Part shown: positions 14,674-34,372 of the stretch, one piece after another
Layout of the letters: each line of letters starts with the position of its first letter
Position numbering within the stretch: position 1 is the stretch's first letter
NCBI RefSeq assembly: GCF_002270485.1
Contig: NZ_NQOG01000010.1
Span: forward strand, 1 to 64,000
Direction of reading: 5' to 3'
DNA length: 64,000 nt
Source of the DNA: Anaerostipes hominis (ex Lee et al. 2021)
GTDB lineage: Bacteria > Bacillota > Clostridia > Lachnospirales > Lachnospiraceae
Position numbers and translations under genes: made by a program
Notes under the pieces: model-generated
The model's database searches: none
Seen by the model: the letters and a program-made list of their open reading frames with translations, nothing else
What the model was told of the DNA's origin: nothing

Positions 14674-14728
14674 AAGGTCCTGTATTGCGGCAATACCGCT
14701 AAAGCAGGTTTATAATTTAGAGACTGCG

Positions 14729-14775
14729 AAAAGAGCAAGGTATGTATAAAACCATATACCCTGCTCTTTTTGTTT
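14729..14775 (+). terminator. Terminator of the fructose operon
   Basis: AAAAGAGCA (14729-14737) pairs with TGCTCTTTT (14762-14770). An inner stem (GGTATG with CATATACC) closes an A-rich loop. A T-rich tail follows. Confidence 0.8.
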
Positions 14776-14779
14776 CATT

Positions 14780-14822
14780 TTTTGTGAAAGAAAATGTACG
14801 GGTGACATTTCTTTTCACAAAA
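14780..14822. promoter_or_regulatory. Long inverted repeat upstream of the PRD regulator
   Basis: TTTTGTGAAAGAAAATGT at 14780-14797 and its near-perfect inverse ACATTTCTTTTCACAAAA at 14805-14822 (16 of 18 positions pair) flank a 7-base spacer. It lies about 40 bp before a -10-like TATACT (14863-14868). It is a good candidate for the binding site of the downstream MtlR-type activator. Confidence 0.55.
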
Positions 14823-14892
14823 GATGAAATACCTCAAACTGTTTTTAAAAGGGTTGGAATGATATACTCAAAACATAGATGAGGTGATGAAT

Positions 14893-16974
14893 ATGAACAA
14901 GAGATCTCGGGTAATCTTATCTACTCTGATTCAGAAAAAAGAATATGGGCAGGCGGCATATATGAAAGAGCTTGCGGAGCAGTTCAAAGTATCCACAAGG
15001 ACCATCAGGAATGATTTGGAGCAGATTAATGAATTTCTAAATAAGAACAAACTATCCGGCGTAAGTCTCGGAAAACAGGGAGTCATTGAGACAGGAAAAG
15101 ACATGGAAAGAGCCAGGCAGTACCTTTTCCAAGATGACTTTTACTCCTATAAGCTGGAGAAACATGAAAGAAAGATGTTTATGGCAACTTTATTAATCTG
15201 TGAAAGGGACTATCGGACCCTTTCGAATCTGGCGGACTGCATGTATGTGAGCCGGTCCACAGTGGTCCAGGACCTGGACGGACTGAAGGCATTTTTTAAG
15301 AAACATAAGCTGTATGTTGTTTCCCATTCCAACAAAGGATTGATACTGGAAGGTGAGGAAAAAAATAAAAGGCTGCTGTTGTTATCCATGATAAAGAGCA
15401 ACGAATCTGTCTACCGGGAGGCACCGGTCTTTGAGAGGCTCATCCGTTCTCTGAAAGAAGAGTGCCGGGTGGACATGGAAGATCTGAAGACTATGGAAAA
15501 GGTGATTAATCTGGCGGAACATTTCTCAGGAAGGTTTCTCACAGATACCTCTTTTACAAACCTGAAATACTTCCTGGTGTTAAGCCTGTACCGCATGAGA
15601 CTAAAAAAGTATGCGGAGCAGGACAGCAAGAAGAACAGCAAATACGAGATGGCTGGTTACATCTTAAAACAGCTCAGTGATTTTGCAGGGATTGAGGTTA
15701 TGGAGGAGGAGATTAAGTTTCTCGGCAGAATATTAAATGAGATGCGTTATATCAAAAAAACGACCAGCAACCAGGAAATCGTAAAGATGCAGGTGATCAC
15801 AAGAACCTTCATTGAACATGTGTCCATTGACATCGACCTGAATTTACAGGGGGATTATATTTTCTATGAAAATCTGATCAACCATCTGGAATCCATGTTT
15901 TCATCGGCTATCCAGGATAACACGGTAAATTCAGTTGTGACAGAAGTATTGGAGCGTTATCCGAAGATTCAGGAAGCAGTGCAGAATAACGTATCTGTTT
16001 TGGAAGAATATATCGGACGGAAGCTGAATGAGGTGGAAATCTCGTACATTGTAGTGCATATCTGTGCTGCCATGGAACGGAACAAAAACTCTACGGAGCG
16101 TTATTCCGTGATCCTTGTGTGCAACGGCGGCATCGGAACATCCCAGCTTCTGCTGGCCAGGCTGAAGAAGTATTTTAATTTCGACGTGGCGGACATCATA
16201 CCGGCACATGACCTGAAAAACGCAGACATAAACGAGGCGGATGTGATCCTTTCCACAGTAGCGCTGGATACCGATATGGAATACATCCAAGTGGACCCGT
16301 TGTTAAATGATGAGGACTGTATCAATGTGGGAAAAAAGCTTTCACGGCTGAAGGGAAGCCATAAAGCCATCAGCAGGCCAAAGGTAAAAGAGAAGCCGGA
16401 GGCTGTGCACATGAAGCGGATCAAGGAGATCCTTGCCGCGGATACGCCCCCGGAACAGATGGTATTTCAAATTGAAGAGGTTGTAAATGAGTTTTGCCAC
16501 AAGGAAGTGAGCATGCCGCTTTTAGCTATGCTTCCCAGCGAGGCAGTCAGGTTAAATGTAAGCTGTGAAAGCTGGCAGGAAGCTGTCAGGCAGTCTGCGC
16601 AGTATCTTCTTAGAAACGGCTGCATCGAGGAGCGGTATATAAGCTCTATGATTGAGAACGTGGAAAAGAACGGCCCTTATATTCTGGTGGCGCCGGGCTT
16701 CGCCCTTCCCCATGAAGCCTTAAATGCGGGGGCTAAGAAGGTGGGTATGAGCCTGATCAGACTGGCAGAGCCGGTAGTGTTCGGCAAGCCTGAATTTGAC
16801 CCGGTTGAATGGGTCTGCTGTTTAAGTGCTATCAACAAGGAAACCCACTTAAAGGCTATGTTCCATCTGGTGAACCTGTTCCATAACCAGAAGTTCAGAG
16901 ATGAGATACGGGATGCAGGGAGCGGGGAAGAAGTCTATAACGCGATCAAACGATATGAATATGAAATGAGGTAA
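14893..16974 (+). CDS. PRD-containing transcriptional activator, MtlR/BglG type
   Basis: A 693-aa regulator. An N-terminal helix-turn-helix (residues about 1-65, KVSTRTIRNDLEQINEFL) and a second helical DNA-binding region (about 85-150) precede two PTS regulation domains (about 185-390). A GatB-like EIIB domain has Cys410 in VCNGGIGTSQ, and a C-terminal EIIA-like domain has His607 in APGFALPHEA. Such proteins activate PTS operons in response to phosphorylation by HPr and the cognate EII. The start follows GAGGTGAT at 14881-14888. The EIIA gene begins 6 bp after its stop, so it probably heads the operon it controls. Confidence 0.9.
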   Translation: MNKRSRVILSTLIQKKEYGQAAYMKELAEQFKVSTRTIRNDLEQINEFLNKNKLSGVSLGKQGVIETGKDMERARQYLFQDDFYSYKLEKHERKMFMATLLICERDYRTLSNLADCMYVSRSTVVQDLDGLKAFFKKHKLYVVSHSNKGLILEGEEKNKRLLLLSMIKSNESVYREAPVFERLIRSLKEECRVDMEDLKTMEKVINLAEHFSGRFLTDTSFTNLKYFLVLSLYRMRLKKYAEQDSKKNSKYEMAGYILKQLSDFAGIEVMEEEIKFLGRILNEMRYIKKTTSNQEIVKMQVITRTFIEHVSIDIDLNLQGDYIFYENLINHLESMFSSAIQDNTVNSVVTEVLERYPKIQEAVQNNVSVLEEYIGRKLNEVEISYIVVHICAAMERNKNSTERYSVILVCNGGIGTSQLLLARLKKYFNFDVADIIPAHDLKNADINEADVILSTVALDTDMEYIQVDPLLNDEDCINVGKKLSRLKGSHKAISRPKVKEKPEAVHMKRIKEILAADTPPEQMVFQIEEVVNEFCHKEVSMPLLAMLPSEAVRLNVSCESWQEAVRQSAQYLLRNGCIEERYISSMIENVEKNGPYILVAPGFALPHEALNAGAKKVGMSLIRLAEPVVFGKPEFDPVEWVCCLSAINKETHLKAMFHLVNLFHNQKFRDEIRDAGSGEEVYNAIKRYEYEMR

Positions 16975-16980
16975 TTCAAC

Positions 16981-17451
16981 ATGATTTGGGAAGATTTAAA
17001 AGAAGAACTGGTGCTCACAGGCCTGGATGCCGAAAGCTCCGGGGAAGTCTTTGAACGTCTGGGTAAGACATTGATAAAAGAAGGCTATTGTAAGGATTCC
17101 TATATTGACGCTCTGAAGGCAAGAGAAAAGGATTTTCCTACAGGAGTTAATATGGCAGGAATCGGGATCGCCATACCGCATACGGACAAAAGCCATGTGC
17201 ATAAGGGCGCTGTGGCTATCGGAGTGTTAAAAAAGCCTGTGAAGTTTTATCAGATGGGCACCACAGATGAAGTTGTCATGGCAAGGCTCATCTTTATGCT
17301 CGCCGTGGACGATCCAGAGGAACATCTCGTATTTTTACAAAAAATACTGCAGGTACTGCAGGATCCAGAGACATTGAGAGGGTTGACTGAATGCAAGGCG
17401 AAACAGGACGTGATCCAAATAATTAAAGACAAAGAACAGTCACTTTCCTAA
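16981..17451 (+). CDS. PTS EIIA component, galactitol/fructose type
   Basis: A 156-aa free-standing EIIA that passes phosphate from HPr to EIIB. His67 in AGIGIAIPHTDKSH is the phosphorylated residue. It belongs to the PTS_EIIA_2 family used by galactitol-type permeases. The genes for EIIB and EIIC follow at 27-bp spacings, so the three make one transporter. A stem after the stop (CTTTCCTAAACAGGGAAAACCG) is too weak to call a terminator. Confidence 0.92.
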   Translation: MIWEDLKEELVLTGLDAESSGEVFERLGKTLIKEGYCKDSYIDALKAREKDFPTGVNMAGIGIAIPHTDKSHVHKGAVAIGVLKKPVKFYQMGTTDEVVMARLIFMLAVDDPEEHLVFLQKILQVLQDPETLRGLTECKAKQDVIQIIKDKEQSLS

Positions 17452-17478
17452 ACAGGGAAAACCGAAAGGAGATATATT

Positions 17479-17781
17479 ATGTCAGTTGTAAATATTTTAT
17501 CCGTTTGCGGATCAGGAACCGTAACTTCATCCATGGTAGCAGCAAAGCTGAAAGAAAAATTAGGAGAGAGAGGATACTCTGTATCCACCACGGAGGCAAG
17601 ACCTACCGAGGCTTTAAATTTAGCACAGTCAGGTAGATTTCATATCCTTGCCCATACCAGTCCGCTTCCGGACGGGGATTACGGCATCCCGACAGTCAAT
17701 GCTTTCGCATGCATTACCGGTATGGGAGAGGAGGAATTTTTTGATCAGATTGTGGAGGCACTGAAGTCTGTCGGAAAGTAA
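17479..17781 (+). CDS. PTS EIIB component, galactitol type
   Basis: A 100-aa EIIB of the GatB family. Cys10 in ILSVCGSGTVTSSMVAAKL is the phosphocysteine that donates phosphate to the incoming sugar alcohol. A clear ribosome binding site (GAAAGGAG) precedes it. GatB relatives serve galactitol, arabitol, ribitol and related polyols, so the family alone does not give the substrate. Confidence 0.92.
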   Translation: MSVVNILSVCGSGTVTSSMVAAKLKEKLGERGYSVSTTEARPTEALNLAQSGRFHILAHTSPLPDGDYGIPTVNAFACITGMGEEEFFDQIVEALKSVGK

Positions 17782-17808
17782 AAAGAGAGTAAAACGGAGG
17801 AAATACAT

Positions 17809-19236
17809 ATGGAAGCAATTCTTACAACATTGAAAGCAATCATTGACAACTTCGGGTCGGCTATCATCGTACCATTTATTATTTTTATCATTGCATTAAT
17901 ATTTAAAGTAAAAGTTCAAAAAGCATTTTTATCGGCGCTCTATGCAGGAGTATCCCTGATGGGATTTACGCTGATTCTCGGAGCATTTACACCAATCATC
18001 ACACCGATGGTTAAAAATATGTCCCAGGTTATGGCAGGTATCACGGGAGTCAACTTAAATACATTCGATGTGGGCTGGCAGGCAACATCAGTAGTTGCCT
18101 TTGCCACCAGTGCGGGAATGATTTATTTAGGCCTGGGTATTTTGCTGCAGACGATCCTGTTCCTTGTGAAGTGGACAAATATTTTTCAGCCGTCTGACCT
18201 TTGGAATAACTATTCCTATATTGTCTGGGGTGCCATGGTTATTTTCAAGACCCATAATTTTTTCCTCGGAATCGCATGTATGATTCTCTTGAATCTGTAC
18301 AGCCTGCTCATATCCGAGCTGGTGGCAAAGCGGTGGTCCAAGTATTATAACTATCCGAATTGTACGATCATCGCCATGCACAACGTGGAACCGGCTATTT
18401 TTGCCATCTTGTTTGACCCGATCTTAAATAAACTCGGATTCAATAAATTAAAGCTGAACCCGAAATCCATAGAAAAGAAAATTGGTTTCCTCGGTGAGCC
18501 GATGACACTTGGATTTTTCCTTGGAATGTTTATCGGAATACTTGGAAGCGTAAATAAGCTCGGAACGATTGCTGGATGGGGTGATATCTTAGAAGCTGCC
18601 ATTGCAACGAGTGCAGTCATGGCCATTTTCCCTAAGATCGCCAGTATGTTTGCCCAGGCGTTTGCGCCGATCACAGAGGCCGCACGAAGATTTATGGGAA
18701 AAGCGGGAGACAGAGAATGGTACATTGCAGTCAATGACGCGGTAGGATACGGAGAACCTGCGACTCTTACAAGCGGACTTCTCCTGATCCCGATCATGAT
18801 CGTGGTTTCCACCATTCTTCCGGGCAACCAGGTGCTGCCGGTCGTGGATCTGCTGGCAATTCCATACATGGTACAGGGTCTGGTAGCCGTGTATAAAGGA
18901 AATATGTCAAAGATTCTTGTGGCAGGAACCATCTGGTTCAGTTTAGGGCTTTTGATGTGTACCTACACAGCGCCGCTGTTCACACAGGTAGCCATGGCTG
19001 CAGGCTTTGCCATTCCGGCAGGAGCAGCTATGATCACCAGCTTTAACATTCTTGGAAAACCGATGCTTGGTTTCGTATTCCTCGCGTTCCTTTCCGGAAA
19101 TCCGGTATTCATCGCCATCGCGGTGGCAGTTTATGCGGCAATGTTTGCAGTATTTAAATTAAAAAACAAGGAAATCGTAGCTTACTTAGACCGTCAGGCA
19201 GATAAAAATGAATCAGCAGAAGAGGCAGGGGTGTAG
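17809..19236 (+). CDS. PTS EIIC component, galactitol type
   Basis: A 475-aa integral membrane permease of the GatC family with about nine to eleven hydrophobic segments, including FGSAIIVPFIIFIIALIF near the N terminus. Conserved-looking stretches are GWQATSVVAFATSAGMI, HNVEPAIFAILFDPI and GEPATLTSGLLLIP. It forms the transmembrane channel for the polyol. The next gene begins four bases after its stop, linking transport to the AraM-like dehydrogenase. Confidence 0.92.
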   Translation: MEAILTTLKAIIDNFGSAIIVPFIIFIIALIFKVKVQKAFLSALYAGVSLMGFTLILGAFTPIITPMVKNMSQVMAGITGVNLNTFDVGWQATSVVAFATSAGMIYLGLGILLQTILFLVKWTNIFQPSDLWNNYSYIVWGAMVIFKTHNFFLGIACMILLNLYSLLISELVAKRWSKYYNYPNCTIIAMHNVEPAIFAILFDPILNKLGFNKLKLNPKSIEKKIGFLGEPMTLGFFLGMFIGILGSVNKLGTIAGWGDILEAAIATSAVMAIFPKIASMFAQAFAPITEAARRFMGKAGDREWYIAVNDAVGYGEPATLTSGLLLIPIMIVVSTILPGNQVLPVVDLLAIPYMVQGLVAVYKGNMSKILVAGTIWFSLGLLMCTYTAPLFTQVAMAAGFAIPAGAAMITSFNILGKPMLGFVFLAFLSGNPVFIAIAVAVYAAMFAVFKLKNKEIVAYLDRQADKNESAEEAGV

Positions 19237-19239
19237 AGT

Positions 19240-20541
19240 ATGAAAGTGGATGTAAAAGAATTTTTGAAACCGTGCAGCTGCGGCAGAAAACATGAGATCG
19301 TCGTGGACGATATAATCATAGAAAGCGGGGCAGTCTCAAAGCTCCCGGAAATCCTTTCAAGGGACGCATATAAGAAGTTCCAGAATATTGTCATGATCTG
19401 TGATGAAAATACTTATGAGGCAGCGGGAAAGACGGTGGAACGCCTTGTGCCGGGTCTGAAAAAGGCAGTTCTTGACCCAGCCAACCTTCACGCCAATGAA
19501 CACGGCGTGGAGGCAGCCAAAAACCAGCTTGACCAGATCGGAGACGTGGATCTGATGATCGCCGTCGGATCAGGAACGATCCACGATATCACAAGATATC
19601 ATGCCTATGAGAGAAAGATCCCGTTCTTCTCTGTACCTACAGCGGCCAGTGTGGACGGCTATGTGTCCACGGTGGCAGCTATGACATGGCATGGATTTAA
19701 AAAAAGCTTTACTGCCGTGTCACCGGTTGTGGTGATCGCGGACACTGATATCTTCAGCAAGGCGCCGATGCGTCTGACAGCTTCCGGGGTTGCAGATCTG
19801 CTTGGAAAATATACGGCTCTGGCAGACTGGAAGATCACACATATCCTGACCGGGGAATACATTTGTGAAGAAATATGTGAGATGGAGTACAAGGCGCTGG
19901 ATGCGCTGACAAACAGTCTTTCCGGGCTGGCCAGGGGAGATGCCGGAGCCTATGAGGAGCTTATGTATGGGCTTCTGCTCTCAGGACTGGCTATGCAGAT
20001 GACAGGAAACTCCCGGCCGGCCTCAGGGGCGGAGCATCATATGTCCCATCTGTGGGAGATGGAAGTGCTGAATGATTACATTGATTTTTACCACGGAGAA
20101 AAAGTGGGCGTGGGTCTGATCCTCGCTTCTAAGATCTATCACAAGGCAGCCCAGAAAATGCGCAGCGGGGCATTTACGGTAAAAGAATCCATGCCGGTGG
20201 AAGAAGAACTGATCAGAGTGAATTTTACAAAGCTCGGTATGTACGAGTCCATTATGGAGGAAAATACACCGAATCTTCTGGAAAAGGTTGATTCCCAAAA
20301 GCTTTTGGATAAAAAGAATGAGATCGCAGCTGTCATTGACGAGATTCCTTCTGCCGAGGCTCTTACGGAGATGCTCGCAAAGGTGGACGGGGTCAGATCC
20401 CTTGAGGATCTTGGATTTGACGAGAGCTTCCAGGAAAAGACCGCAAGGCTGTCTCCTTATGTGAGAGCCAGGATCACGTTTATGAGGCTTCTCAAGTTCT
20501 ATAGTTTTTATGAAGAAGTGATCAAGAATCAGGGAGGGTGA
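19240..20541 (+). CDS. sn-Glycerol-1-phosphate dehydrogenase family protein (AraM-like)
   Basis: A 433-aa metal-dependent polyol-phosphate dehydrogenase of the AraM/EgsA family. It has a Rossmann segment with [13 protein letters not shown] and [13 protein letters not shown]. Likely metal ligands are Asp186 in GVADLLGKY, His266 or His267 in SGAEHHMSH and His285 in YHGEKVG. B. subtilis AraM makes glycerol 1-phosphate from dihydroxyacetone phosphate and lies in the arabinose operon. Here the gene follows a polyol PTS and precedes AraD- and AraL-like genes, so oxidation of an imported pentitol phosphate is a reasonable alternative role. That role is inferred from context. Confidence 0.85.
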
Positions 20542-20546
20542 AAGAT

Positions 20547-21242
20547 ATGCTGGAAGAATTAAAACAGCAGGTTTATGAGGCAAATATGGAACTTCCCGCA
20601 AAGGGACTGGTTACCTATACTTGGGGAAACGTAAGTGGCATCGACCGTGAAAAAGGGCTGTTTGCCATCAAGCCAAGCGGCATTGCCTATGAAGACCTGG
20701 AACCATCTGATATGGTTCTTATGAATTTAAACGGAGAGTGTGTGGAGGGAGATTATAAGCCTTCCTCCGACACACCGACCCATCTGGAACTGTATAAAGC
20801 ATTTCCGCAGGTGGGAGGCATTGTCCACACCCACTCTGCCTGGGCAGCCTCCTGGGCGCAGGCAGGAAGGCCAATCCCATGTTACGGAACCACACATGCA
20901 GATTATTTTTATGGGGAGATCCCGTGTGCCAGAAGTCTGAGACCGGAAGAGATTGAAACGGAATATGAGAAAAATACAGGGCTAGTCATTGTCGAGACAT
21001 TTCAGGGAATGAATCCAGCCTATGTTCCAGGAGTTCTCTGCACAAACCACGGACCGTTTGCCTGGGGAAAGGATGCAGAGGAGGCAGTACACAATGCTGT
21101 CGTGATGGAAGAGGTGGCAAAAATGGCTGCCAGGACAGAGCAGCTGAAGATAGAAGTGGGTGAGGCGCCCAAGACCATCCAGGATAAGCATTTTTTCCGG
21201 AAACACGGCCCCAATGCCTACTACGGAAACGCCGGAAAGTGA
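20547..21242 (+). CDS. araD: L-ribulose-5-phosphate 4-epimerase family protein
   Basis: A 231-aa class II aldolase/epimerase fold protein. It matches AraD/UlaF/Sgb[32 protein letters not shown] (zinc-binding His pair) and [16 protein letters not shown]. It converts L-ribulose 5-phosphate to D-xylulose 5-phosphate, feeding the pentose phosphate pathway. The start at 20547 follows AGGGAGGGTG at 20531-20540; a GTG at 20538 lies inside that site. The gene is 5 bp from araM-like and 6 bp before the HAD gene. No araA or araB is seen nearby, which argues against simple arabinose breakdown. Confidence 0.9.
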
Positions 21243-21248
21243 GGGGCT

Positions 21249-22025
21249 ATGTTAGAAAATATCAAAGCTTTTGTCCTGGATATGGACGGAACGATTTATC
21301 TTGGAAATGAACTGTTTCCGTTTACGAAGGACTTTCTTTCCAGAGTGGAGGAGACAGGCAGAAAATTTTACTTCTTCACAAATAACTCTTCCAAGAGCCA
21401 GCAGGCCTATATTGAAAAGCTTTCCAATATGGGCATTGCTATCTCCAAAGAGCAGATGATGATCTCCAGCCATGTGATGATACGGTTTCTTTTGGAAAAC
21501 CATCCTGGAAAAAGTGTTTATGTCGTGGGAACACCTTCTCTGCTGAACGAATTCAGAAGCTTTGGGATACCTCTGGTGGAAGAAGATCCGGATATTGTTG
21601 TTCTGGGATTTGACACGACTCTGACCTATGAAAAGCTGTCCAGGGCCTGCCATTCTATCCGGAACGGCTGCATCTATTACGGAATCAATCCCGATTTAAA
21701 CTGTCCCATGGAGGGAGGTACGTTTATCCCGGACTGCGGTTCCATGGCAAGGCTTGTGGAGGCTTCCACCGGACGGTACCCGGAGTTTTTCGGAAAACCT
21801 TCAAAATATACATTAAATTATATGATTCAGGAGACGGGATACCGCCCGGATGAAATCGCCATTGTAGGTGATCGGCTGTATACAGACATTGCCGTGGCCG
21901 ATCAAAGCGAAGTGACATCCATTCTTGTGTTAAGCGGTGAGAGTACCCTGAAAGATGTGGAGAATGGAGATATAAAACCAGATCTCATTGTGAAAGATTT
22001 AAGTGAGATAACGAGAGAACTGTAA
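21249..22025 (+). CDS. HAD-family sugar phosphatase, NagD/AraL type
   Basis: A 258-aa phosphatase of the NagD subfamily. Motif I is LDMDGTIYLG with Asp11 and Asp13. Motif II is in FFTNNSS. The C2 cap includes GINPDLNCPMEGG, and motif IV is AIVGDRLYTDI. B. subtilis AraL, in the arabinose operon beside AraM, belongs to this group and removes phosphate from toxic sugar phosphates. The same neighbours here suggest the same detoxifying role for excess pentitol or pentulose phosphates. It is the last gene of the operon and is followed by a strong terminator. Confidence 0.88.
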   Translation: MLENIKAFVLDMDGTIYLGNELFPFTKDFLSRVEETGRKFYFFTNNSSKSQQAYIEKLSNMGIAISKEQMMISSHVMIRFLLENHPGKSVYVVGTPSLLNEFRSFGIPLVEEDPDIVVLGFDTTLTYEKLSRACHSIRNGCIYYGINPDLNCPMEGGTFIPDCGSMARLVEASTGRYPEFFGKPSKYTLNYMIQETGYRPDEIAIVGDRLYTDIAVADQSEVTSILVLSGESTLKDVENGDIKPDLIVKDLSEITREL

Positions 22026-22028
22026 AAA

Positions 22029-22075
22029 AGAAAAACACATTGGATGTTGTGTACGGAGATCCAATGTGTTTTTCT
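22029..22075. terminator. Bidirectional terminator
   Basis: AAAAACACATTGGAT (22031-22045) pairs with ATCCAATGTGTTTTT (22059-22073), a 15-bp stem with T-runs on both sides. It separates the HAD gene from the convergent Uma2 gene. Confidence 0.88.
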
Positions 22076-22084
22076 ATTAAATTT

Positions 22085-27169: not shown

Positions 27170-27715
27170 ATGAAAGAAAAACAGTACATCCGTCAACAGA
27201 TCAAACAAAAAACAGAGAAGTTATCCACAAGATATCTTCGGGATTCGGAAGAAGAGATTCAGAAACAGATCCTTATGCTGCCGGAATTTAAGAGGGCGGA
27301 GACTGTTTTCTGCTACATATCCGTGGGAAAGGAAGTATCCACAGAATTGATTTTAACAGAATGCTTCCGACAGGGAAAACGGGTGGGAGTGCCCTTGTGC
27401 ACAGCTCCCGGAATCATGGAAGTAAGGCAGATCACCTGTATGGACCAGTTAGAACACGGCATCTACGGACTCATGGAGCCAAAAAGAAATACTCCCATTG
27501 TGGAGAAACGAGAGATTGACCTGGGGATTATTCCTTGTATCAGCGCAGACTTCTGTGGAAAACGTCTCGGACATGGAGCCGGGTATTATGACCGGTATCT
27601 AAGCGATACAGAATTTTTGAAGGTGGTTTTATGCAGAAAAGAGCTTCTGTGGGAGGAGATTCCTACAGACAGCTATGATGTGCCAATGGACCTTGTGGTC
27701 ACGGAGAAGGGGTGA
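27170..27715 (+). CDS. 5-Formyltetrahydrofolate cyclo-ligase
   Basis: A 181-aa enzyme that converts 5-formyl-THF to 5,10-methenyl-THF with ATP. Diagnostic stretches are VFCYISVGKEVSTE, VGVPLC and GKRLGHGAGYYDRYL, the phosphate-binding loop of the family. The start at 27170 follows AGAGGTG at 27155-27161; earlier in-frame ATGs from 27095 lack a ribosome binding site. Its stop is 4 bp before the TTG start of the AraC gene, suggesting co-transcription without obvious functional link. Confidence 0.93.
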   Translation: MKEKQYIRQQIKQKTEKLSTRYLRDSEEEIQKQILMLPEFKRAETVFCYISVGKEVSTELILTECFRQGKRVGVPLCTAPGIMEVRQITCMDQLEHGIYGLMEPKRNTPIVEKREIDLGIIPCISADFCGKRLGHGAGYYDRYLSDTEFLKVVLCRKELLWEEIPTDSYDVPMDLVVTEKG

Positions 27716-27719
27716 AACT

Positions 27720-28598
27720 TTGATTCGATTTGATATTAACCAGAATTTAAAAGAAGTTTTTGAGGACGGAAAGCTGCCAGCCATGGTATACATATCCAGA
27801 CAGGAGAGCACCCCGGAGAAAATAAGCCGTCCGCTGCACAGCCATGAATCTATCTGTGAACTTTTGCTTGTATATAAGGGGACCGGAACCTATCAGGTAG
27901 GCACCAGTATTTATCCCATAGAAGAAGGCTGTATGGCTTATTATAACCAGGGAGACCTTCATGAGATCGCAACGGCTGAGAAGACCAACATCGGCCATTA
28001 TTGTATCGGTATTACAAACCTTCACTTAAAGGAACTTAAGAAAAACCAGATGGTGCCGGAGGGAGGGCCCTATATCCGCCATGCAGGATCCCTGTTTCCG
28101 TTTTTAAAGATGATGTGTGATCAGATCTACATGATGGAAGAGCTGAATCCGGCAGGCCAGCTGGCATCGCAGCTTTTCTGCGCCTCCATGGTGGTCATTG
28201 CCAGCCAGCTGGATACATTTCCGCAGGCTATGGCCGCGGAGACGAGGGAGGAAGAGTTTATCTCAAGAATTCTGGATTATTTGAATGAACACTTCACGGA
28301 GGAATTAAATCTGGACAAGATCGCTGAGGACATGCACTGCTCTGCCACTTATGTCTCCCACGGCCTGAAAAAAGCCACGGGTATGACTCCCATCAATTAT
28401 ATTATCCGCAGGCGGATCGGCCTTGCCCAGACAATGCTGATCTCTACCGATCTCACGGCGACCCAGATCGCCACTATGGTGGGATACGACAACACCAATT
28501 ACTTCAGCACACTGTTTACAAAGACCGTTGGTATGACGCCGATCCGGTACCGGAACATGTATCTGGAAAAGCTGAGGGGCAGGAGAGACCAGTCATGA
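27720..28598 (+). CDS. AraC-family transcriptional regulator with cupin domain
   Basis: A 292-aa regulator. An N-terminal cupin sensor (about residues 30-130) includes SRPLHSHESICELLLVYKG and GDLHEIATAE. A C-terminal AraC DNA-binding domain (about 185-285) has DKIAEDMHCSATYVSHGLKK and the second helix pair ending in DNTNYFSTLFTKTVGMTP. I chose the TTG at 27720 because AAGGGG at 27707-27712 lies seven bases upstream. An ATG at 27675 would run 15 codons inside the previous gene. The ligand and targets are unknown. Confidence 0.88.
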   Translation: MIRFDINQNLKEVFEDGKLPAMVYISRQESTPEKISRPLHSHESICELLLVYKGTGTYQVGTSIYPIEEGCMAYYNQGDLHEIATAEKTNIGHYCIGITNLHLKELKKNQMVPEGGPYIRHAGSLFPFLKMMCDQIYMMEELNPAGQLASQLFCASMVVIASQLDTFPQAMAAETREEEFISRILDYLNEHFTEELNLDKIAEDMHCSATYVSHGLKKATGMTPINYIIRRRIGLAQTMLISTDLTATQIATMVGYDNTNYFSTLFTKTVGMTPIRYRNMYLEKLRGRRDQS

Positions 28599-28699
28599 GA
28601 GTGAAAAGAGCAGGAATACATACAAGAGGGCATGATTTCAGAATACTTCTGATAGATTCTAATTCTAAAAAGGTAGTAGGACAGATAGCAATCAAATAA
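28595..28699 (+). CDS. Possible 34-aa peptide coupled to the AraC gene
   Basis: An ATG at 28595 overlaps the AraC stop (ATGA) and is preceded by AGGAGAG at 28581-28587. It opens 34 codons with a basic composition (MRVKRAGIHTRGHDF at the start, VVGQIAIK at the end). Its last eight bases overlap the 3' end of the convergent MerR gene. No family is recognised. It may be a real small protein or a leftover gene start. Confidence 0.35.
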   Translation: MRVKRAGIHTRGHDFRILLIDSNSKKVVGQIAIK

Positions 28700-29588
28700 T
28701 TCTAAACTTAGAGTTACATGTTTTTTTCTTGAGATAATATTGTAATGCTTCCCCTATAAACTTTGAAGCTCCTTTACAGTACTGCTGATCCATAGCCTCG
28801 ATCAGCTTTGGATTGTGGAGATATCCGTCAATCAGCTTATCATAGTAGTTCTCGCCCAGATCCATTGTAGGCTGGTCTTCTTCATCCAGCAGGTTTAACA
28901 TCTGGCCGATGATATTCTGTACTTCTTCAGATTTGACATCCCTTGAAACGTCACTTGTCAGCTGCTCCATCAAGTCTTTATTCTTTTCTACATACCCTTT
29001 TTCTTTGATCTTCCGCATCTTCTCCATATTCTCAGAGAAATGGCTTAGGCTCTCTTTCATGGCATCTGTGTATTTTTCAACACTGCCGTAATACTCCACC
29101 GCCGTTTGAGCGATGCTGGACTTATGATCCCTGGCTCTTTTTATAAATTCATCGAAGGCTTCGGTACTTCCCCAGTATTTCATAATCTCCTCTGTATTCT
29201 CTTTTTTAAACTGCTCCAATGCCTGGATATATTCACTTAAATCAAATTCTTTAAAACTCATATAGGTTTCTCCTTGTTCCAGTCTGCCAATCAGGTCTAA
29301 CAGTCTGTTCAGCCTGTCTCGTTTTGCTTTTAGCAGTGTTTTTTGCCTGCTAAGAGCTTCTTTTTTATTAAAATTGGGATTTTCCATGATCCTTTTAATA
29401 TCCTTCAGAGGAAATTCCAACTCCTTAAAAAGTAATATCTGCTGTAGAGTGTTTATGGATTCATCGTTGTATAGTCTATAACCGGCGCCGGTGACCTTTG
29501 CGGGTTTTAATAAACCGATTTCATCATAATACTGTAAGGTCCGCACGCTGACGCCTGAAAGTACTGCAACTTCTTTTATGGTTCTCAA
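28692..29588 (-). CDS. MerR-family regulator with TipAS-like effector domain
   Basis: A 298-aa regulator. The N-terminal MerR domain (residues about 1-70) starts MRTIKEVAVLSGVSVRTLQYYDEIG and includes the wing GAGYRLYND; a coiled coil follows at about 75-110. The C-terminal half (WGSTEAFDEF, SHFSENMEKM, GEALQYYL) matches TipAS domains, which in TipAL and Mta bind antibiotics. The start is TTG at 29588 with GGAGATG upstream. A typical MerR promoter lies before it, so it probably controls itself. No other target gene is adjacent. Confidence 0.88.
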   Translation of the reverse strand: MRTIKEVAVLSGVSVRTLQYYDEIGLLKPAKVTGAGYRLYNDESINTLQQILLFKELEFPLKDIKRIMENPNFNKKEALSRQKTLLKAKRDRLNRLLDLIGRLEQGETYMSFKEFDLSEYIQALEQFKKENTEEIMKYWGSTEAFDEFIKRARDHKSSIAQTAVEYYGSVEKYTDAMKESLSHFSENMEKMRKIKEKGYVEKNKDLMEQLTSDVSRDVKSEEVQNIIGQMLNLLDEEDQPTMDLGENYYDKLIDGYLHNPKLIEAMDQQYCKGASKFIGEALQYYLKKKTCNSKFRII

Positions 29589-29624
29589 GACATCATCTCC
29601 AATCTGTTGTGTATCTTTGATTCT

Positions 29625-29655
29625 ATCTTACATTATCACGTTACGTGAGAGTCAA
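29625..29655 (-). promoter_or_regulatory. MerR-type promoter with operator in a 19-bp spacer
   Basis: On the minus strand TTGACT (29650-29655) and TAAGAT (29625-29630) are 19 bp apart. The perfect 13-bp palindrome TCACGTTACGTGA (29636-29648) fills the spacer. This is the classic over-long promoter that TipA/Mta/BmrR-type regulators untwist to activate. Confidence 0.85.
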
Positions 29656-29884
29656 TGGTTTTTCATGTCTTTTTAAAAATCATTATATGAGTAATTTGTG
29701 GGTACTTTGTTTGTGTCTTATACAAGATAGTGGAGTCCTTGTTCTCATTTCTAATATATTTCTTTGAAATGCCCCTGTTTTTGATCTCACAGCGAACAAA
29801 ATAGTAAAGGCGGAGGACCTTTGTTTTTTCTAAAATAATAATTACAGAAAGCGATGCTGAACAAACAAAACAGGAGGTTTTAAC
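29656..29884 (+). promoter_or_regulatory. Upstream region of the inositol-type cluster
   Basis: This AT-rich stretch should hold the promoter of the operon at 29885, but I see no convincing -35/-10 pair. A small stem (AAAGG 29806-29810 with CCTTT 29818-29822) followed by a T-run could be a weak terminator or attenuator. AGGAGGT before 29885 is the ribosome binding site. Confidence 0.3.
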
Positions 29885-30811
29885 ATGAGTATGAATATCT
29901 GCGGAGCTCCTTGCTGCTGGGGCGTGGATGATGTAAAGAACCCTTATCTGCCGCCATGGCAGAGGGTACTTAAGGAGGCAGGCCAGGCGGGTTACCGGGC
30001 CATTGAGCTTGGACCTTACGGATATCTTCCGATTGATGTGGAGACAGTCTCTGAGGAGTTAAAAAAGAATGGATTAGCCATTGTGGCAGGGACGATCTTC
30101 GACGATCTGCTGAGTGAAGAAAACTATGAAAACGTATTGAGACAGACAGAAGAGATCTGTTCTCTGGTCACAAAGCTTCCGCCGCTTCCGGTACATGAGG
30201 GCCAGCATTTTGCTGCGCCTTATATGACCATCATGGACTGGGGTCATGATGAGAGGGATTATGCGGCCGGACATCCTGACAAAGCGCCGAGGCTTTCAGA
30301 AGAAAAATGGGCAGCGATGATGGGCCACATCAGGGGAATCTGTGAAAAAGCAAAAGAATACGGTGTGCGGCCGGTCATTCATCCTCACGCTGGAGGTTAT
30401 ATTGAGTTTGCAGATGAGATCGAAGCGGTGGTAAGGGACATTCCTTATGAGCTGGCAGGTCTCTGCCTGGATACAGGGCATCTTTATTACTCCGGCATGG
30501 ATCCGGCAGAATGGCTGAAAAAGTATGCGGACCGCTTGGATTATGTCCACTTTAAAGATGTGGATGAAAAGGTATACCGGGAAGTTCTGGGAGAACATAT
30601 CCGCTTTTTTGAGGGCTGTGGTAAAGGAGCCATGTGTCCCATAGGAAAAGGCGCACTGGACTACCCTGAGATCAAGCAGACCTTGGAGGATATCCAGTAC
30701 AGCGGATATATCACCATAGAACAGGAACGTGATCCAAGAAATTCAGACACAAGCCTCCGGGACGTGAAGGCCAGTGTTACATATTTAAAAAGTGTAGGAT
30801 ATGAAATCTAA
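29885..30811 (+). CDS. TIM-barrel sugar isomerase/dehydratase, IolE-like
   Basis: A 308-aa AP-endonuclease-2-like TIM-barrel protein. It opens ICGAPCCWGVDD, close to the NAPCSWG start of inosose dehydratase IolE, and contains GYRAIELGPYGYLP, VIHPHAGGYIE, LAGLCLDTGHLYYSG, YVHFKDVDEKV and GYITIEQERDP. These His, Asp and Glu residues are the usual metal ligands. IolE dehydrates 2-keto-myo-inositol; this protein may act on the same or a related keto-cyclitol. Its partners are a Gfo/Idh dehydrogenase and IolH, which supports an inositol-type pathway. The exact reaction is not fixed by the sequence. Confidence 0.85.
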   Translation: MSMNICGAPCCWGVDDVKNPYLPPWQRVLKEAGQAGYRAIELGPYGYLPIDVETVSEELKKNGLAIVAGTIFDDLLSEENYENVLRQTEEICSLVTKLPPLPVHEGQHFAAPYMTIMDWGHDERDYAAGHPDKAPRLSEEKWAAMMGHIRGICEKAKEYGVRPVIHPHAGGYIEFADEIEAVVRDIPYELAGLCLDTGHLYYSGMDPAEWLKKYADRLDYVHFKDVDEKVYREVLGEHIRFFEGCGKGAMCPIGKGALDYPEIKQTLEDIQYSGYITIEQERDPRNSDTSLRDVKASVTYLKSVGYEI

Positions 30812-30831
30812 TTCTGAAAAGGAGCAAAACT

Positions 30832-31995
30832 ATGTATTACGGAGAAAAGAAAATTGAAAAACCGATCCGCTGGGCTATGGTAGGGGGAGGAAAGGGAAGC
30901 CAGATTGGCTATATCCACCGGTCTGCCGCAATGAGAGATTTTAATTTTGACCTGGTTGCAGGTGCCTTTGACATTGACCCGGAGAGGGGCAGAGAGTTTG
31001 GTAAGCAGCTTCATGTGGATGAGGACAGATGTTACCCAGATTATAAGACTATGTTTGCAAAGGAAGCTAAGCGCCAGGACGGGATCCAGGCGGTCTCCAT
31101 TGCAACTCCCAACGGAACACACTTTGAGATCACAAAGGCAGCCTTGCTTGCCGGGCTTCATGTTGTATGTGAAAAACCTCTCTGTTTTACAACCGAAGAG
31201 GCGGAGGAATTAGAGGCACTGGCCACAAAACAAAATAAAATCGTAGGTGTTACTTACGGTTATGCGGGACATCAGGTCATCGAGGAGGCACGACAGCTGA
31301 TCGCCGAAGGAAAGCTGGGAAAGATTCGTATTGTCAATATGCAGTTCTCCCATGGATTCCACAACGTGGCAGTCGAAAAAAATACAGCCTCCACAAAATG
31401 GCGGGTAGATCCAAAGGTTGCAGGACCGTCCTATGTGCTGGGTGATGTGGGAACCCATCCGCTGTACTTATCTGAAGTCATGCTTCCGGATATGAAGATC
31501 AAACGGCTGATGTGCAGCAGACAGTCCTTCGTCGAGTCCAGAAAACCTCTGGAGGACAACGCTATGACCATCATGGAATATGACAATGGTGCCGTGGGAT
31601 ACGTTTGGTCATGCTGTGTAAACTGCGGTTCCATGCATGGGCAGAAGATTCGTGTCATCGGTGAAAAGGCATCTATTGAGTGGTGGGATGAGCATCCGAA
31701 CCAGCTGACCTATGAAGTGCAGAATGAACCTGTACGTGTTCTGGAAAGAGGCATGGGATATCTGGCACCTTCTGCCCTGGAGGAAGACCGTATTGGGGCA
31801 GGGCATCCGGAAGGTTTGTTTGAGGCATGGAGTAACTTATATAGCCGCTTTGCGCAGGCCATGGACGCATGTGACAGAGGAGAGAACGTGGAGTTCTGGT
31901 ATCCCAATGTACACGCAGGGGCAGAGGGCGTGCGCTGGGTAGAAAACTGTGTACAATCCGCAGATCAGGGCGCACAGTGGGTAGATTATAAGTAA
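30832..31995 (+). CDS. Gfo/Idh/MocA-family NAD(P)-dependent dehydrogenase
   Basis: A 387-aa oxidoreductase. The Rossmann fold (about 1-150) has MVGGGKGSQIGYIHR and ends in the family motif CEKPLC with the catalytic-region Lys. The C-terminal substrate domain has GPSYVLGDVGTHPLYLSEV, which holds the usual Asp and His. Members oxidise ring hydroxyls of inositols or sugars. It begins 20 bp after the IolE-like gene and ends 12 bp before iolH, so it likely performs the first oxidation in the pathway. Oxidation of a glycoside at C3 is an alternative activity in this family. Confidence 0.9.
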   Translation: MYYGEKKIEKPIRWAMVGGGKGSQIGYIHRSAAMRDFNFDLVAGAFDIDPERGREFGKQLHVDEDRCYPDYKTMFAKEAKRQDGIQAVSIATPNGTHFEITKAALLAGLHVVCEKPLCFTTEEAEELEALATKQNKIVGVTYGYAGHQVIEEARQLIAEGKLGKIRIVNMQFSHGFHNVAVEKNTASTKWRVDPKVAGPSYVLGDVGTHPLYLSEVMLPDMKIKRLMCSRQSFVESRKPLEDNAMTIMEYDNGAVGYVWSCCVNCGSMHGQKIRVIGEKASIEWWDEHPNQLTYEVQNEPVRVLERGMGYLAPSALEEDRIGAGHPEGLFEAWSNLYSRFAQAMDACDRGENVEFWYPNVHAGAEGVRWVENCVQSADQGAQWVDYK

Positions 31996-32007
31996 GGAGC
32001 TGATGAG

Positions 32008-32928
32008 ATGAAAATAGCATTTGACGTGGATGTGCTGGCAAAGCAGATGGATATCAACCGGATGGTGCATCAGGTGGCAGACTGGGGTTATAAATACATC
32101 GAACAGTCTCCGCATCCAAGGATCAATCCATTCTATAAACACCCGCTGTTCTCCAGGGAATGTGAGGCAGAATACAGGAAAGCACTCCGGGAAACCGGAG
32201 TGGAGATCTCCTCCTTTATCGTAGTGTACCGCTGGTCCGGACCTACAGAGGAGCAGAGACAGATGGCAGTAGCCAACTGGAAGCGGATGATTGAGATTGC
32301 CGTGGACATGGGTGTGCCGGTGATTAACACGGAACTCTCCGGGGATCCCAACCAGCAGGAGATCTGCAACGGCATGTGGTTCCATTCTATGGAAGAACTT
32401 CTGCCGATCATTGAGAGGGAAGGGCTCCGGGTGGAGATCCAGTCCCATCCGTATGACTTCTGCGAATTAAACAATGAGACTTGTGATCTGGTGAAATCCT
32501 TCCGCTCCCCGAACCTTGGATATGTGTATTCTTCCCCACATGGATTCTTCTATGACGAGGGAAAAGGGGATGTGCGCTCCATGTTACAGTACGCAGGGGA
32601 AGAACTGACCCACGTACTGTTTGCGGATACGTTCAACCAGACCATGGACTGCCGCTATATCGCCAACCCGCCGTGGTTAAACGGAAGAGGAAAAGCGGAT
32701 GTGACCATCCACCAGCATTTAGCCATGGGAGAGGGAGACGTGGACTTTGACGGTATCTTTGAGACGTTAAGAGAGATGGACTTCGCAAACAGCCAGTTAA
32801 GGGAAGATGCACCGAAAGCCGGAGGAGACAACATTGCATGTGTATCCATGTTCGGATTCCCGGAAAAGATGGAGAAGCAGGCGCCGGAGGCAAGAGAACG
32901 CATTGAACGGGAACTGCTGAAAGGGTAG
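32008..32928 (+). CDS. iolH: TIM-barrel isomerase/epimerase, IolH family
   Basis: A 306-aa TIM-barrel protein. From memory of B. subtilis IolH it shares distinctive stretches: YKYIEQSPHPRINPFYKHP, EISSFIVVYRWSGP, ELLPIIEREG, YDFCELNNET and DIACVS-like FGFPEKM near the end. IolH lies in the B. subtilis inositol operon, where its exact step is poorly defined. Its presence beside an IolE-like protein and a Gfo/Idh dehydrogenase is the strongest sign that the cluster handles an inositol isomer or derivative. Confidence 0.85.
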   Translation: MKIAFDVDVLAKQMDINRMVHQVADWGYKYIEQSPHPRINPFYKHPLFSRECEAEYRKALRETGVEISSFIVVYRWSGPTEEQRQMAVANWKRMIEIAVDMGVPVINTELSGDPNQQEICNGMWFHSMEELLPIIEREGLRVEIQSHPYDFCELNNETCDLVKSFRSPNLGYVYSSPHGFFYDEGKGDVRSMLQYAGEELTHVLFADTFNQTMDCRYIANPPWLNGRGKADVTIHQHLAMGEGDVDFDGIFETLREMDFANSQLREDAPKAGGDNIACVSMFGFPEKMEKQAPEARERIERELLKG

Positions 32929-32935
32929 AGTGAGA

Positions 32936-34324
32936 ATGGAAAAGAAGCAAGGAACGATATTAGAAAAATTATCATGGAAAACAAGATTCTCTTATGGATG
33001 CGGAGATACGGCGTGCAATGTGGTTTTTGGGATGATCAGCACGGTGCTGACGCTGTTTTACACAGATTACGTGGGAGTCTCTGCCGCAACAGTCGGAATG
33101 GTCATGCTGCTCTCCAGAGTATTTGACGGATTCTCTGACGTTATCATGGGATTTATTGTGGAACGAACCAACTCCAAATGGGGGAAATCAAGGCCGTGGA
33201 TCCTGTGGATGGCGGCACCGTATGCCGTCTCAGCCGTGCTGTTATTCACAGTGCCCCACACGACAAACTTTCTGCAGTTTCTGTATATGTTTGTGACGTA
33301 TAATTTTTGTACGACCATCTGTTATACGGCCATCAATCTGCCCTACGGAAGCCTATCTGCTATGATGTCCAGAAGTTCTGAGGAGCGGAGCATGCTCAGT
33401 ATCGTGAGAATGGGAATGTCACCGTTCGGGCGTATTCTGGCAGTAACCTGCACCATGCCGTTAGTAAAGCTGTTCGGGGATACCCAGTCCTCATGGGTGA
33501 TCGTCATGGGCATATGGGCTGTGATCGCCATGGTCCTTTTAATCATCTGTTTTGCCAACTGCCAGGAGACCGTAAAGATCGAAGCCCGTGAGAAGCAGGA
33601 AAAGATACCTGCGCTCAAGGCATTAAAGCTTTTAGTGACCAATCAGTATTTTTGGGCCGTATTGGTCCTCTGGATGATGCAGAATGTGATCTACGGTGTG
33701 ACAGGGACCATTCTGCCATATTACTGCAAGTACATATTCCACAACGATACATGGATGTACAGTACACTGTATCTGACGGAAACTCTGACCATCGTGGCAT
33801 CCACGTGTATCGTATGCCCTATCCTGCTAAAACACTTCGGCAAGAGAAATATGGCGCTTGCGGGGGCGGTGTTAGCGCTGGCCGGACAGCTTGTGTTCTT
33901 TGCCAATCCCTACAGTTTTCAGTGGATGCTTTTGTGCTGTATCATCAGGGGTATCGGATTATCGCCGTTAAATGCTATTGTCTTTGGCATGCTGGGCGAT
34001 GTGGTGGAATTCGGACAGTGGAAGCACCATATCCGCCAGGAGAGCCTGATATTTGCCGGCGGGTCAGTGGGAACAAAGATTGGTTCCGGCCTGGCCTCAG
34101 CCATCATGACGGGACTTCTCTCACTGGCAGGCTATCTGAGTTCTGCGGCAGGAGCAGTCACCCAGCCCCAGTCGGCCATTGATATGATTATAAACATTTA
34201 TAAAATGGGACCGATCATTGTCTGGGTCGTAGTCATCATAACACTTGTCCTATACAAACTGGACAAAAAATATGAAACGATCATGGAGGAACTGACAGAA
34301 CGGGAACTTCAGGGTCAGCTATAA
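32936..34324 (+). CDS. GPH-family sugar/cation symporter
   Basis: A 462-aa membrane transporter of the glycoside-pentoside-hexuronide type (MFS superfamily), with about twelve helices. Typical signs are FSYGCGDTACNVVFG at the start, DGFSDVIMGFIVERTNSKWGKSRPWI after helix 2 and GMLGDVVEFGQWKHHIRQES late in the chain. It is co-directional with the three catabolic genes and starts 7 bp after iolH, so it probably imports their substrate. I prefer the ATG at 32936; a GTG at 32930 is also possible and the ribosome binding site is weak. B. subtilis IolF/IolT transporters are of another MFS branch. Confidence 0.9.
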   Translation: MEKKQGTILEKLSWKTRFSYGCGDTACNVVFGMISTVLTLFYTDYVGVSAATVGMVMLLSRVFDGFSDVIMGFIVERTNSKWGKSRPWILWMAAPYAVSAVLLFTVPHTTNFLQFLYMFVTYNFCTTICYTAINLPYGSLSAMMSRSSEERSMLSIVRMGMSPFGRILAVTCTMPLVKLFGDTQSSWVIVMGIWAVIAMVLLIICFANCQETVKIEAREKQEKIPALKALKLLVTNQYFWAVLVLWMMQNVIYGVTGTILPYYCKYIFHNDTWMYSTLYLTETLTIVASTCIVCPILLKHFGKRNMALAGAVLALAGQLVFFANPYSFQWMLLCCIIRGIGLSPLNAIVFGMLGDVVEFGQWKHHIRQESLIFAGGSVGTKIGSGLASAIMTGLLSLAGYLSSAAGAVTQPQSAIDMIINIYKMGPIIVWVVVIITLVLYKLDKKYETIMEELTERELQGQL

Positions 34325-34331
34325 ATGAACA

Positions 34332-34372
34332 GCAGGGAAGGAGCCTTTGAATCAGGTTTCCTCCCTGCATTT
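34332..34372. terminator. Terminator between convergent genes
   Basis: GCAGGGAAGGA (34332-34342) pairs imperfectly with TTTCCTCCCTGC (34357-34368), followed by ATTTTATATTAT. It serves the transporter gene and perhaps the convergent AraC gene. Confidence 0.6.

Follow-up and report, generated by a model that had tools for sequence, protein, structure and literature searches.

AraM of bacteria corresponds to the enzyme by which archaea make their lipid backbone, and we know of no accepted explanation for its place in sugar operons. According to the available text of the reports concerned, AraM is encoded together with AraD and an AraL-type phosphatase in araABDLMNPQ-abfA of Bacillus subtilis (PMC3207120), with AraD and AraB in araMDBW of Thermotoga maritima (PMC3750489), and with AraB and AraL in araB-araB-araM-araL of Propionibacterium freudenreichii (PMC4437456); the latter two sets are filed under L-arabinose, and no phosphotransferase system (PTS) is named for them in that text. 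For atlABCD of Bacillus methanolicus, the available part of the report proposes a GAT-type PTS that gives a pentitol phosphate, which a dehydrogenase converts to a pentulose phosphate, and places an antiterminator gene upstream (PMC6685057). Here, we analyzed a 64,000-nucleotide stretch of the Anaerostipes hominis (ex Lee et al. 2021) genome (contig NZ_NQOG01000010.1, positions 1 to 64,000; hereafter the window), in which an operon at 14,893 to 22,025 has a GAT-type PTS, as atl is proposed to have, together with AraM, AraD, and an AraL-type phosphatase, as in the B. subtilis ara genes. The gene content suggests that this operon is probably a catabolic unit for a pentitol that enters through the PTS, is oxidized by AraM, and is then processed by AraD.

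Seven intact genes, all on the plus strand, were found at 14893-22025. They begin with the operon's own PRD activator and follow the order that a preliminary description, made from the sequence alone, had given (profile scores in bits):

14893..16974, plus strand: PRD/Mga-type activator with EIIB-like and EIIA2 domains (conserved start MNKRSR at 14893; mechanical start at 14884)
16981..17451, plus strand: PTS EIIA (PTS_EIIA_2, 120.7; best NCBIfam model galactitol EIIA, 80.7 against a cut-off of 139)
17479..17781, plus strand: PTS EIIB (PTS_IIB, 27.6 against a cut-off of 23.6)
17809..19236, plus strand: PTS EIIC of the GAT family (EIIC-GAT, 218.8; cut-off, 24.2)
19240..20541, plus strand: AraM-type Fe-ADH_2 dehydrogenase of 433 residues (Fe-ADH_2, PF13685, 113.4; cut-off, 28)
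20547..21242, plus strand: AraD-type L-ribulose-5-phosphate 4-epimerase (Aldolase_II above cut-off; NF009003, 375.1 against 331)
21249..22025, plus strand: HAD-IIA (NagD/AraL-type) phosphatase (Hydrolase_6, 92.5; Hydrolase_like above cut-off)

Three bases separate the EIIC stop from the AraM start, and five separate the AraM stop from the conserved AraD start, the ATG at 20547 (the mechanical open reading frame [ORF] start is the GTG at 20538). The ORF list and the Pfam search revealed no kinase, isomerase, or other dehydrogenase within 14884-22025, and the earlier statement that the operon has neither an isomerase nor a sugar kinase therefore holds.

AraM is classed as a member of the EgsA/AraM branch of the iron-type alcohol dehydrogenases. 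Its closest solved chain is PDB 9h4x, labelled glycerol-1-phosphate dehydrogenase (E 6.9e-50), and the two are 38% identical across 295 aligned positions (296 residues of 9h4x). On the equivalog model for glycerol-1-phosphate dehydrogenase, NF002022, AraM scored 195.3 bits against a cut-off of 413, which may be an archaeal cut-off; the low score argues for divergence of AraM and is no proof of another function. Residues D186, H266, and H285, which we take to be an Asp-His-His metal site, were invariant among eight AraMs, and in 37 aligned AraMs, H266 and H285 were invariant and D186 was kept in at least 90%. An N-terminal CxCGxxH motif was also observed at residues 12-18 (C12 invariant, C14 and H18 in at least 90% of the 37 rows); the alignment to 9h4x begins past it, at residue 19, and it is perhaps an extra metal site.

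The AraD protein of the window is a clear L-ribulose-5-phosphate 4-epimerase by its profile matches and conserved residues. It passed the NCBIfam subfamily model NF006047 (373.1 against 257 bits) and barely missed the equivalog TIGR00760 (371.1 against 389.1), a cut-off that the ara and ula copies of the same genome also missed (380.9 and 378.2). In the alignment with E. coli AraD (PDB 1jdi, E 6.8e-88), residues N28, K42, D76, H95, H97, D120, H171, H218, and Y229, which presumably serve catalysis or zinc binding in E. coli AraD, were all kept.

In the activator, HTH_11, Mga (31.5 bits), PRD (51.8 bits), and C-terminal PTS_EIIA_2 (106.8 bits) all exceeded the Pfam cut-offs, and the EIIB-like stretch was slightly under its own (22.2 against 23.6). 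The EIIC-GAT domain is accompanied by separate, adjoining EIIA and EIIB genes, the mark of a GAT-type PTS, and EIIC matched the galactitol EIIC of PDB 9u82 (E 2.4e-50); EIIB had no NCBIfam match. The PTS had been described as galactitol-type. Its membership of the GAT family was upheld, whereas galactitol specificity was not, EIIC scoring 256.2 bits on the galactitol model TIGR00827 against a cut-off of 542.2.

The phosphatase passed HAD-SF-IIA (141 against 100.15 bits) and matched PDB 1vjr (E 1.2e-66), and its solved relatives include glycerol-3-phosphate phosphatases. The route first proposed for the operon left the role of this protein unexplained. In the available text of the report on AraL, the Km values for sugar phosphates are 25-41 mM, and its authors propose a role in relief from sugar phosphates (PMC3207120). 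The window phosphatase is probably likewise a relief valve, for sugar or polyol phosphates.

The window genome (G000) has four AraM matches with E < 1e-55, including the window copy, and two weaker ones, and all four strong copies are located in PTS loci. A second GAT-PTS locus (L007, G000:C23:1-13000) encodes an AraM of 62% identity, an MDR dehydrogenase, and a class II aldolase-like protein that is no clear AraD (best score, 111.8 against a cut-off of 251 bits); a different polyol route, in which AraM feeds an aldolase, may operate there. Another locus (L008, G000:C1:63000-82000) encodes a sorbitol-type PTS, two AraMs, RpiB, a HAD-IIA protein, and a SorC-type regulator identified by eye. The best named matches of the operon itself are in Anaerostipes metagenome-assembled genomes (MAGs; EIIB and EIIC, 91% identical; AraM, 74-75%).

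The AraD model had nine matches in the genome, three of them strong. The strong AraD at C15 lies with an L-arabinose isomerase (774 against 622 bits) and an FGGY-like kinase, and that at C1 (L171) lies in an L-ascorbate operon with a 6-phosphate lactonase (621 against 306 bits) and an L-ribulose-5-phosphate 3-epimerase. The L-arabinose and L-ascorbate routes both pass through L-ribulose 5-phosphate. The genome's only AraA match is at C15, and AraA and AraB are absent from the window operon. Because the two other AraDs serve routes through L-ribulose 5-phosphate and AraM is the only oxidoreductase of the window operon, L-ribulose 5-phosphate is suggested to be the product of AraM.

AraM beside AraD and AraB in other genomes

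AraM loci were surveyed by a scan of genome contigs that covered the best 80 of 573 relatives, a set that leans to the window's own kind and may leave out records of its own or a very near genome. Of these 80 named loci, 20 have AraD on the same strand no more than 3 kb away, and 23 have it near or fused, a count that adds two fusions (L099 and L116) and L136, where it lies about 4 kb off. Among the 52 loci with 3 kb on both sides, AraD was present in 13 and EIIC-GAT in seven. In nine of the 20 loci with AraD nearby, a DeoR-type regulator (family named from L104) is divergent from the araD-araM pair, and these have no PTS.

The survey of AraM beside GatABC that had been suggested for this operon revealed PTS, AraM, and AraD together in six further named loci: a Lachnospiraceae MAG (L060), Megamonas (L061), Anaerostipes (L063 and L064), Catenisphaera (L065), and Absicoccus (L076). 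The set spans three classes (Clostridia, Negativicutes, and Erysipelotrichia), and its order varies, with the phosphatase ahead of AraD in L061 and EIIC first in L076. Because it recurs in other genera, the arrangement is not a matter of chance. In L063 and L064, counterparts of the window genome's two GAT-PTS-AraM loci stand back to back, the L007 counterpart directly adjoining the window-type operon.

AraD and AraM were also found as one polypeptide, in a 717-residue frame from a roe deer cecum MAG (L099) and a 662-residue frame from a goat cecum MAG (L116). Identities were 57% and 54% for the AraD parts and 48% and 44% for the AraM parts, respectively. In both frames, the two Pfam domains exceeded their cut-offs and no stop interrupted the sequence; the linker lacked an ATG and, in L099, contained one GTG. 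The two fall in one small, weakly supported tree group (SH-aLRT 84), and the fusion may have arisen in one event or two. Since AraD and AraM are neighbors elsewhere and fused here, the fusions are the strongest sign that the two enzymes act in sequence.

A quick maximum-likelihood tree was computed from 108 AraM rows (L041 left out as it shares a contig with L115; L099 and L116 counted with AraD). In it, all 12 GAT-linked AraMs formed one clade (SH-aLRT 99), and the two sorbitol-PTS rows were placed outside this clade. Eight changes were required for the label "AraD nearby, no PTS" (17 rows), at least seven of them forced by starred branches, against a mean of 16.1 after shuffling (0 of 500 shuffles as low). 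This spread over several branches suggests that the AraD-AraM pairing is old or has arisen repeatedly, and that it is not universal.

Co-occurrence was analyzed in a sample of 391 genomes of the class, with E-value cut-offs of 1e-60 for AraM, 1e-140 for AraB (TIGR01234), 1e-30 for AraA, and 1e-80 for AraD; 30, 77, 73, and 157 genomes, respectively, were positive. AraB was present in 21 of the 30 AraM genomes and in 56 of the 361 others (Fisher p 4.5e-10, a value that does not account for kinship), and no link was found between AraM and AraA (7 of 30, p 0.47). The same held among the 157 AraD-bearing genomes, where AraB occurred in 13 of the 14 with AraM against 44 of the 143 without (within-family permutation p 0.0004, for these genomes only) and AraA in seven of 14 against 63 of 143 (p 0.48). 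The sole AraM genome without AraB among the 14 is the window genome. AraM follows the kinase AraB, not the isomerase AraA. E. coli AraB phosphorylates L-arabitol and ribitol, and the association fits a role of AraB as a pentitol kinase ahead of AraM. For human FGGY, the available text of one report mentions a weak ribitol kinase activity as unpublished data (PMC4873967).

At L072, AraM, AraB (782 against 583 bits), and AraD are consecutive genes, and AraA had no match in that genome. Six PTS-type genomes were searched for AraA (E <=0.001) and AraB (TIGR01234, E <=1e-30): G391, G394, G395, and G396 had neither, Megamonas had both, and Selenomonas had AraA only. Among the 20 genomes with AraM-AraD or AraM-PTS, AraA exceeded the cut-off in six, five of them with E < 1e-70; these 20 genomes stand for a set of 22 loci, without L070 and with L076 in a record already counted.

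Pentose-phosphate enzymes occur at further AraM loci, in favor of the pentitol reading: RpiB at L008, a ribulose-phosphate 3-epimerase at L118, and a xylulokinase-type kinase together with, by eye, transaldolase-like genes at L045. At L118, AraM and the 3-epimerase are accompanied by an MDR dehydrogenase and by an ABC importer with a BPD_transp_1 permease and an SBP_bac_6 binding protein. L136 encodes, one after another, two AraMs, a protein that looks HAD-like by eye, an ABC importer, and AraD. In these two loci (L118:3717-9906 and L136:11289-15169), AraM lies beside a binding-protein ABC importer and no kinase was seen; the importer might bring in an already phosphorylated pentitol.

The predicted route and its alternatives

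In the proposed route, the PTS would take up and phosphorylate L-arabitol or ribitol, and AraM, using NAD(P)+, would form L-ribulose 5-phosphate by oxidation of L-arabinitol 5-phosphate or L-ribitol 5-phosphate at C2. D-Xylulose 5-phosphate, made from this product by AraD, would then enter either the pentose phosphate or the phosphoketolase route. Overload may be relieved by the HAD phosphatase, which would dephosphorylate pentitol or pentulose phosphates, and the PRD protein would switch the operon on while the PTS works; elsewhere, the AraM step may be fed by the ribulokinase AraB acting as a pentitol kinase. With AraD as the next step, the substrate of AraM could only be L-arabinitol 5-phosphate or L-ribitol 5-phosphate. 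The latter is the same compound as D-ribitol 1-phosphate, and the phosphates of xylitol and D-arabitol would give other pentuloses. L-Arabitol or ribitol is the likeliest substrate by this reasoning, with about equal chances. Much of this route had been put forward in the preliminary description, and it gained support from the fusions, the AraD-AraM pairing on several branches, the link of AraM with AraB without AraA, and the L072 locus, whereas the activity of AraM and the configuration of its substrate remain at the level of inference. More tentatively, AraM-AraD may be a widespread and unrecognized L-arabitol/ribitol module of Firmicutes, in which a PTS or AraB, AraM, and AraD work together, the last two sometimes as one polypeptide.

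Several observations weigh against this route. All of its catalytic steps are deduced from gene context and fusions. At the level of whole genomes, no AraM-AraD link was found (AraD in 14 of the 30 genomes with AraM and in 143 of the 361 without, p 0.45); the link is local, by adjacency and fusion, and is not one of presence or absence. AraB adjoins AraM in only two of the 21 genomes that have both (G068 and G389) and in four of the 80 named loci (L072, L075, L077, and L101). Absence of AraA from the whole genome was dropped as support, as 87 of the 157 AraD-bearing genomes also have no AraA; the argument from a missing isomerase is sound for the operon and not for the genome. L060 has no phosphatase within 3 kb, the short contig of L062 (Selenomonas) carries PTS and AraM without AraD, and the type II PTS loci L007 and L070 have AraM without AraD, L070 with aldolase and MDR genes. 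At L091, AraM lies beside a sodium symporter and a full set of AraA, sugar kinase, and AraD; no dehydrogenase is needed in such a set, which would suit a reductive or side role of AraM. In the tree, 61 of the 108 AraM rows, for example from Blautia, have none of the tested sugar genes nearby, some of them on short contigs. In Blautia loci such as L088, L096, and L097, the neighbors of AraM are housekeeping genes, by eye ispF, cysS, and trmH, and no sugar genes were found close to it.

Three AraM proteins (L045, L046, and L047) are fused to a HAD-IIA phosphatase, which suggests a reductive, detoxifying, or side role of AraM and likewise counts against the route. A ribulokinase lies downstream of the L046 and L047 fusions (665 and 672 against 583 bits), and the sample search found no AraA match in these two genomes. 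Two further candidates for such a fusion were rejected: the long upstream frame of L112 had no match to reference proteins, and the AraM frame of L117 continues into another domain. That frame (L117:5359-7395) runs without a stop into what looks by eye like an MTA/SAH nucleosidase domain.

The chemistry would also be unusual for the family. Characterized AraM and glycerol-1-phosphate dehydrogenases use a three-carbon substrate, which they oxidize at the carbon adjoining the phosphate-bearing carbon, and the proposed AraM step would be at a distal carbon of a five-carbon substrate. The preliminary description had extended the route to Bacillus, as an explanation of why araL and araM travel with araD; this extension gained no such support, and B. 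subtilis AraM is reported, in the available text of two sources, as a glycerol-1-phosphate dehydrogenase (PMC5059525, PMC13400652).

The same reports favor an explanation that we consider unlikely for the window, namely that AraM reduces dihydroxyacetone phosphate to glycerol 1-phosphate and the phosphatase frees glycerol as a redox valve, with the PTS importing, for example, L-ribulose, so that no oxidation is needed. The 38% identity of the window AraM to 9h4x, the AraM-HAD fusions, and the glycerol-3-phosphate phosphatases among the solved relatives of the HAD protein all agree with it. However, it leaves the AraD-AraM fusions and pairs unexplained, AraM has only 195 of the 413 bits set for the glycerol-1-phosphate dehydrogenase equivalog, and a polyol-type PTS would have no dehydrogenase in its operon.

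It is improbable that the substrate is a hexitol or another polyol, galactitol-like, with AraD working on a related ketose phosphate by side activity. The EIIC family does include the galactitol EIIC, but the window EIIC is far under the cut-off of the galactitol model, and neither a tagatose kinase nor a GatY-type aldolase is encoded in the operon; moreover, a GAT PTS is proposed for D-arabitol in the available text on B. methanolicus (PMC6685057). We regard as very improbable for the window a route in which AraM oxidizes the carbon beside the phosphate-bearing carbon to give a ketose 1-phosphate and the class II protein, acting as an aldolase, would split this into dihydroxyacetone phosphate and an aldehyde. 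This would agree with the regiochemistry of glycerol-1-phosphate dehydrogenase, and it may well hold for L007, where AraM is paired with a class II protein that is no clear AraD and with an MDR protein that could reduce the aldehyde. The window protein, by contrast, scores clearly as an AraD and keeps the epimerase residues of the E. coli enzyme, and aldolase models scored far lower (RU1PAldHalo, 97 against 300 bits). Least probable is that AraM and the phosphatase turn surplus L-ribulose 5-phosphate reductively into free pentitol, as overflow or osmolyte synthesis: AraM-HAD fusions do adjoin AraB in L046 and L047, L091 has AraM with AraA, a kinase, and AraD, and AraL and AraM are encoded in the B. 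subtilis arabinose operon according to the available text (PMC3207120), but the window unit starts with its own activator and an uptake PTS and holds no other source of L-ribulose 5-phosphate.

Operon boundaries and neighboring features

The seven genes were confirmed, as far as sequence features allow, as one operon between two strong hairpins, which probably bound the transcription unit. Two hairpins chosen by eye and an inverted repeat were recorded:

14728..14775, plus strand: probable intrinsic terminator of the upstream fructose genes, upstream boundary
14780..14822, plus strand: candidate operator, an 18-base inverted repeat (16 of 18 paired, 7-base spacer) 5' of the activator gene
22022..22078, plus strand: probable intrinsic terminator, downstream boundary

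The hairpin at 14728-14771 has a folding energy of -20.2 kcal/mol (z -8.1) and that at 22029-22075 one of -25.2 kcal/mol (z -8.2), and in each case, 0 of 200 shuffles were as good. These two strong hairpins suggest that the operon is separate from the upstream fructose genes. Neither is listed by the consensus terminator scan; the consensus scans for promoters and terminators were near shuffle level (17 against 13.0, standard deviation 4.3, and 8 against 6.0, standard deviation 2.5, respectively). The inverted repeat, a candidate operator, lies about 70 bases ahead of the activator start, and the stretch around it can be aligned with the same place in L063, L064, and L060, where the repeat is less regular. 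A site scan found no CcpA box at 14674-14893.

Two other regions of the window were noted. The region at 27675-35304, a carbohydrate cluster of uncertain assignment, encodes an IolE-like protein (154 against 290 bits), a Gfo/Idh/MocA-like dehydrogenase, a GPH symporter (325 against 231 bits), and a 306-residue protein without a match, and is flanked by two regulators that look AraC-type by eye. On the minus strand at 46513-50233, an 855-residue protein resembles PEP synthase and rifamycin phosphotransferase (417 against 999 bits on the latter model, with no model above its cut-off); the adjoining MFS efflux-like transporter passed only the general superfamily model TIGR00880 (136.6 against 131 bits) and no tetracycline-specific model.

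Comparison with known systems

If the pentitol route is correct, it would define an L-arabitol/ribitol route in gut bacteria and change AraM annotations across Clostridia and Erysipelotrichia; glycerol-1-phosphate synthesis inferred from a bacterial araM would then need care. If the AraM-AraD module is as widespread as tentatively proposed above, many bacterial "glycerol-1-phosphate dehydrogenases" would be pentitol-phosphate dehydrogenases, and Bacillus araL and araM would be remnants or side arms of pentitol use. It could also explain an orphan trait of P. freudenreichii: according to the available text, every strain grew on adonitol and half of them on L-arabitol, and the authors identified no pathway for this (PMC4437456). 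With the natural AraD-AraM fusion, a single purified protein would be enough to test the idea. In the literature searched, a coverage outside which most subscription journals lie, no title or abstract connected AraM with pentitol phosphates.

The gat operon has EIIA, EIIB, and EIIC of the same family as the window, with an MDR dehydrogenase, a kinase, and an aldolase; in place of these three, the window has AraM and AraD, and its EIIC is under the galactitol cut-off. The ula operon, of which the window genome has a copy (G000:C1, L171), resembles the window in joining a PTS to an AraD-type conversion of L-ribulose 5-phosphate to D-xylulose 5-phosphate. However, ula reaches L-ribulose 5-phosphate through a lactonase, a decarboxylase, and a 3-epimerase, not through a dehydrogenase, and the lactonase and 3-epimerase were seen in the L171 copy. 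Unlike the window operon, the B. subtilis ara system obtains L-ribulose 5-phosphate from AraA and AraB and does not rely on a PTS for uptake. The arabitol phosphate dehydrogenase of atl is, we assume, of the MDR type; such an enzyme is absent from the window operon (14884-22025), and an MDR gene is present in L007. In the available text on atl, the arabitol phosphate dehydrogenase is sorbitol-dehydrogenase-like, its product is xylulose 5-phosphate, and AraM and AraD are not named (PMC6685057). PTS-linked pentitol operons are already known, and what sets this one apart is the AraM-AraD pair, with a predicted new activity for a known family.

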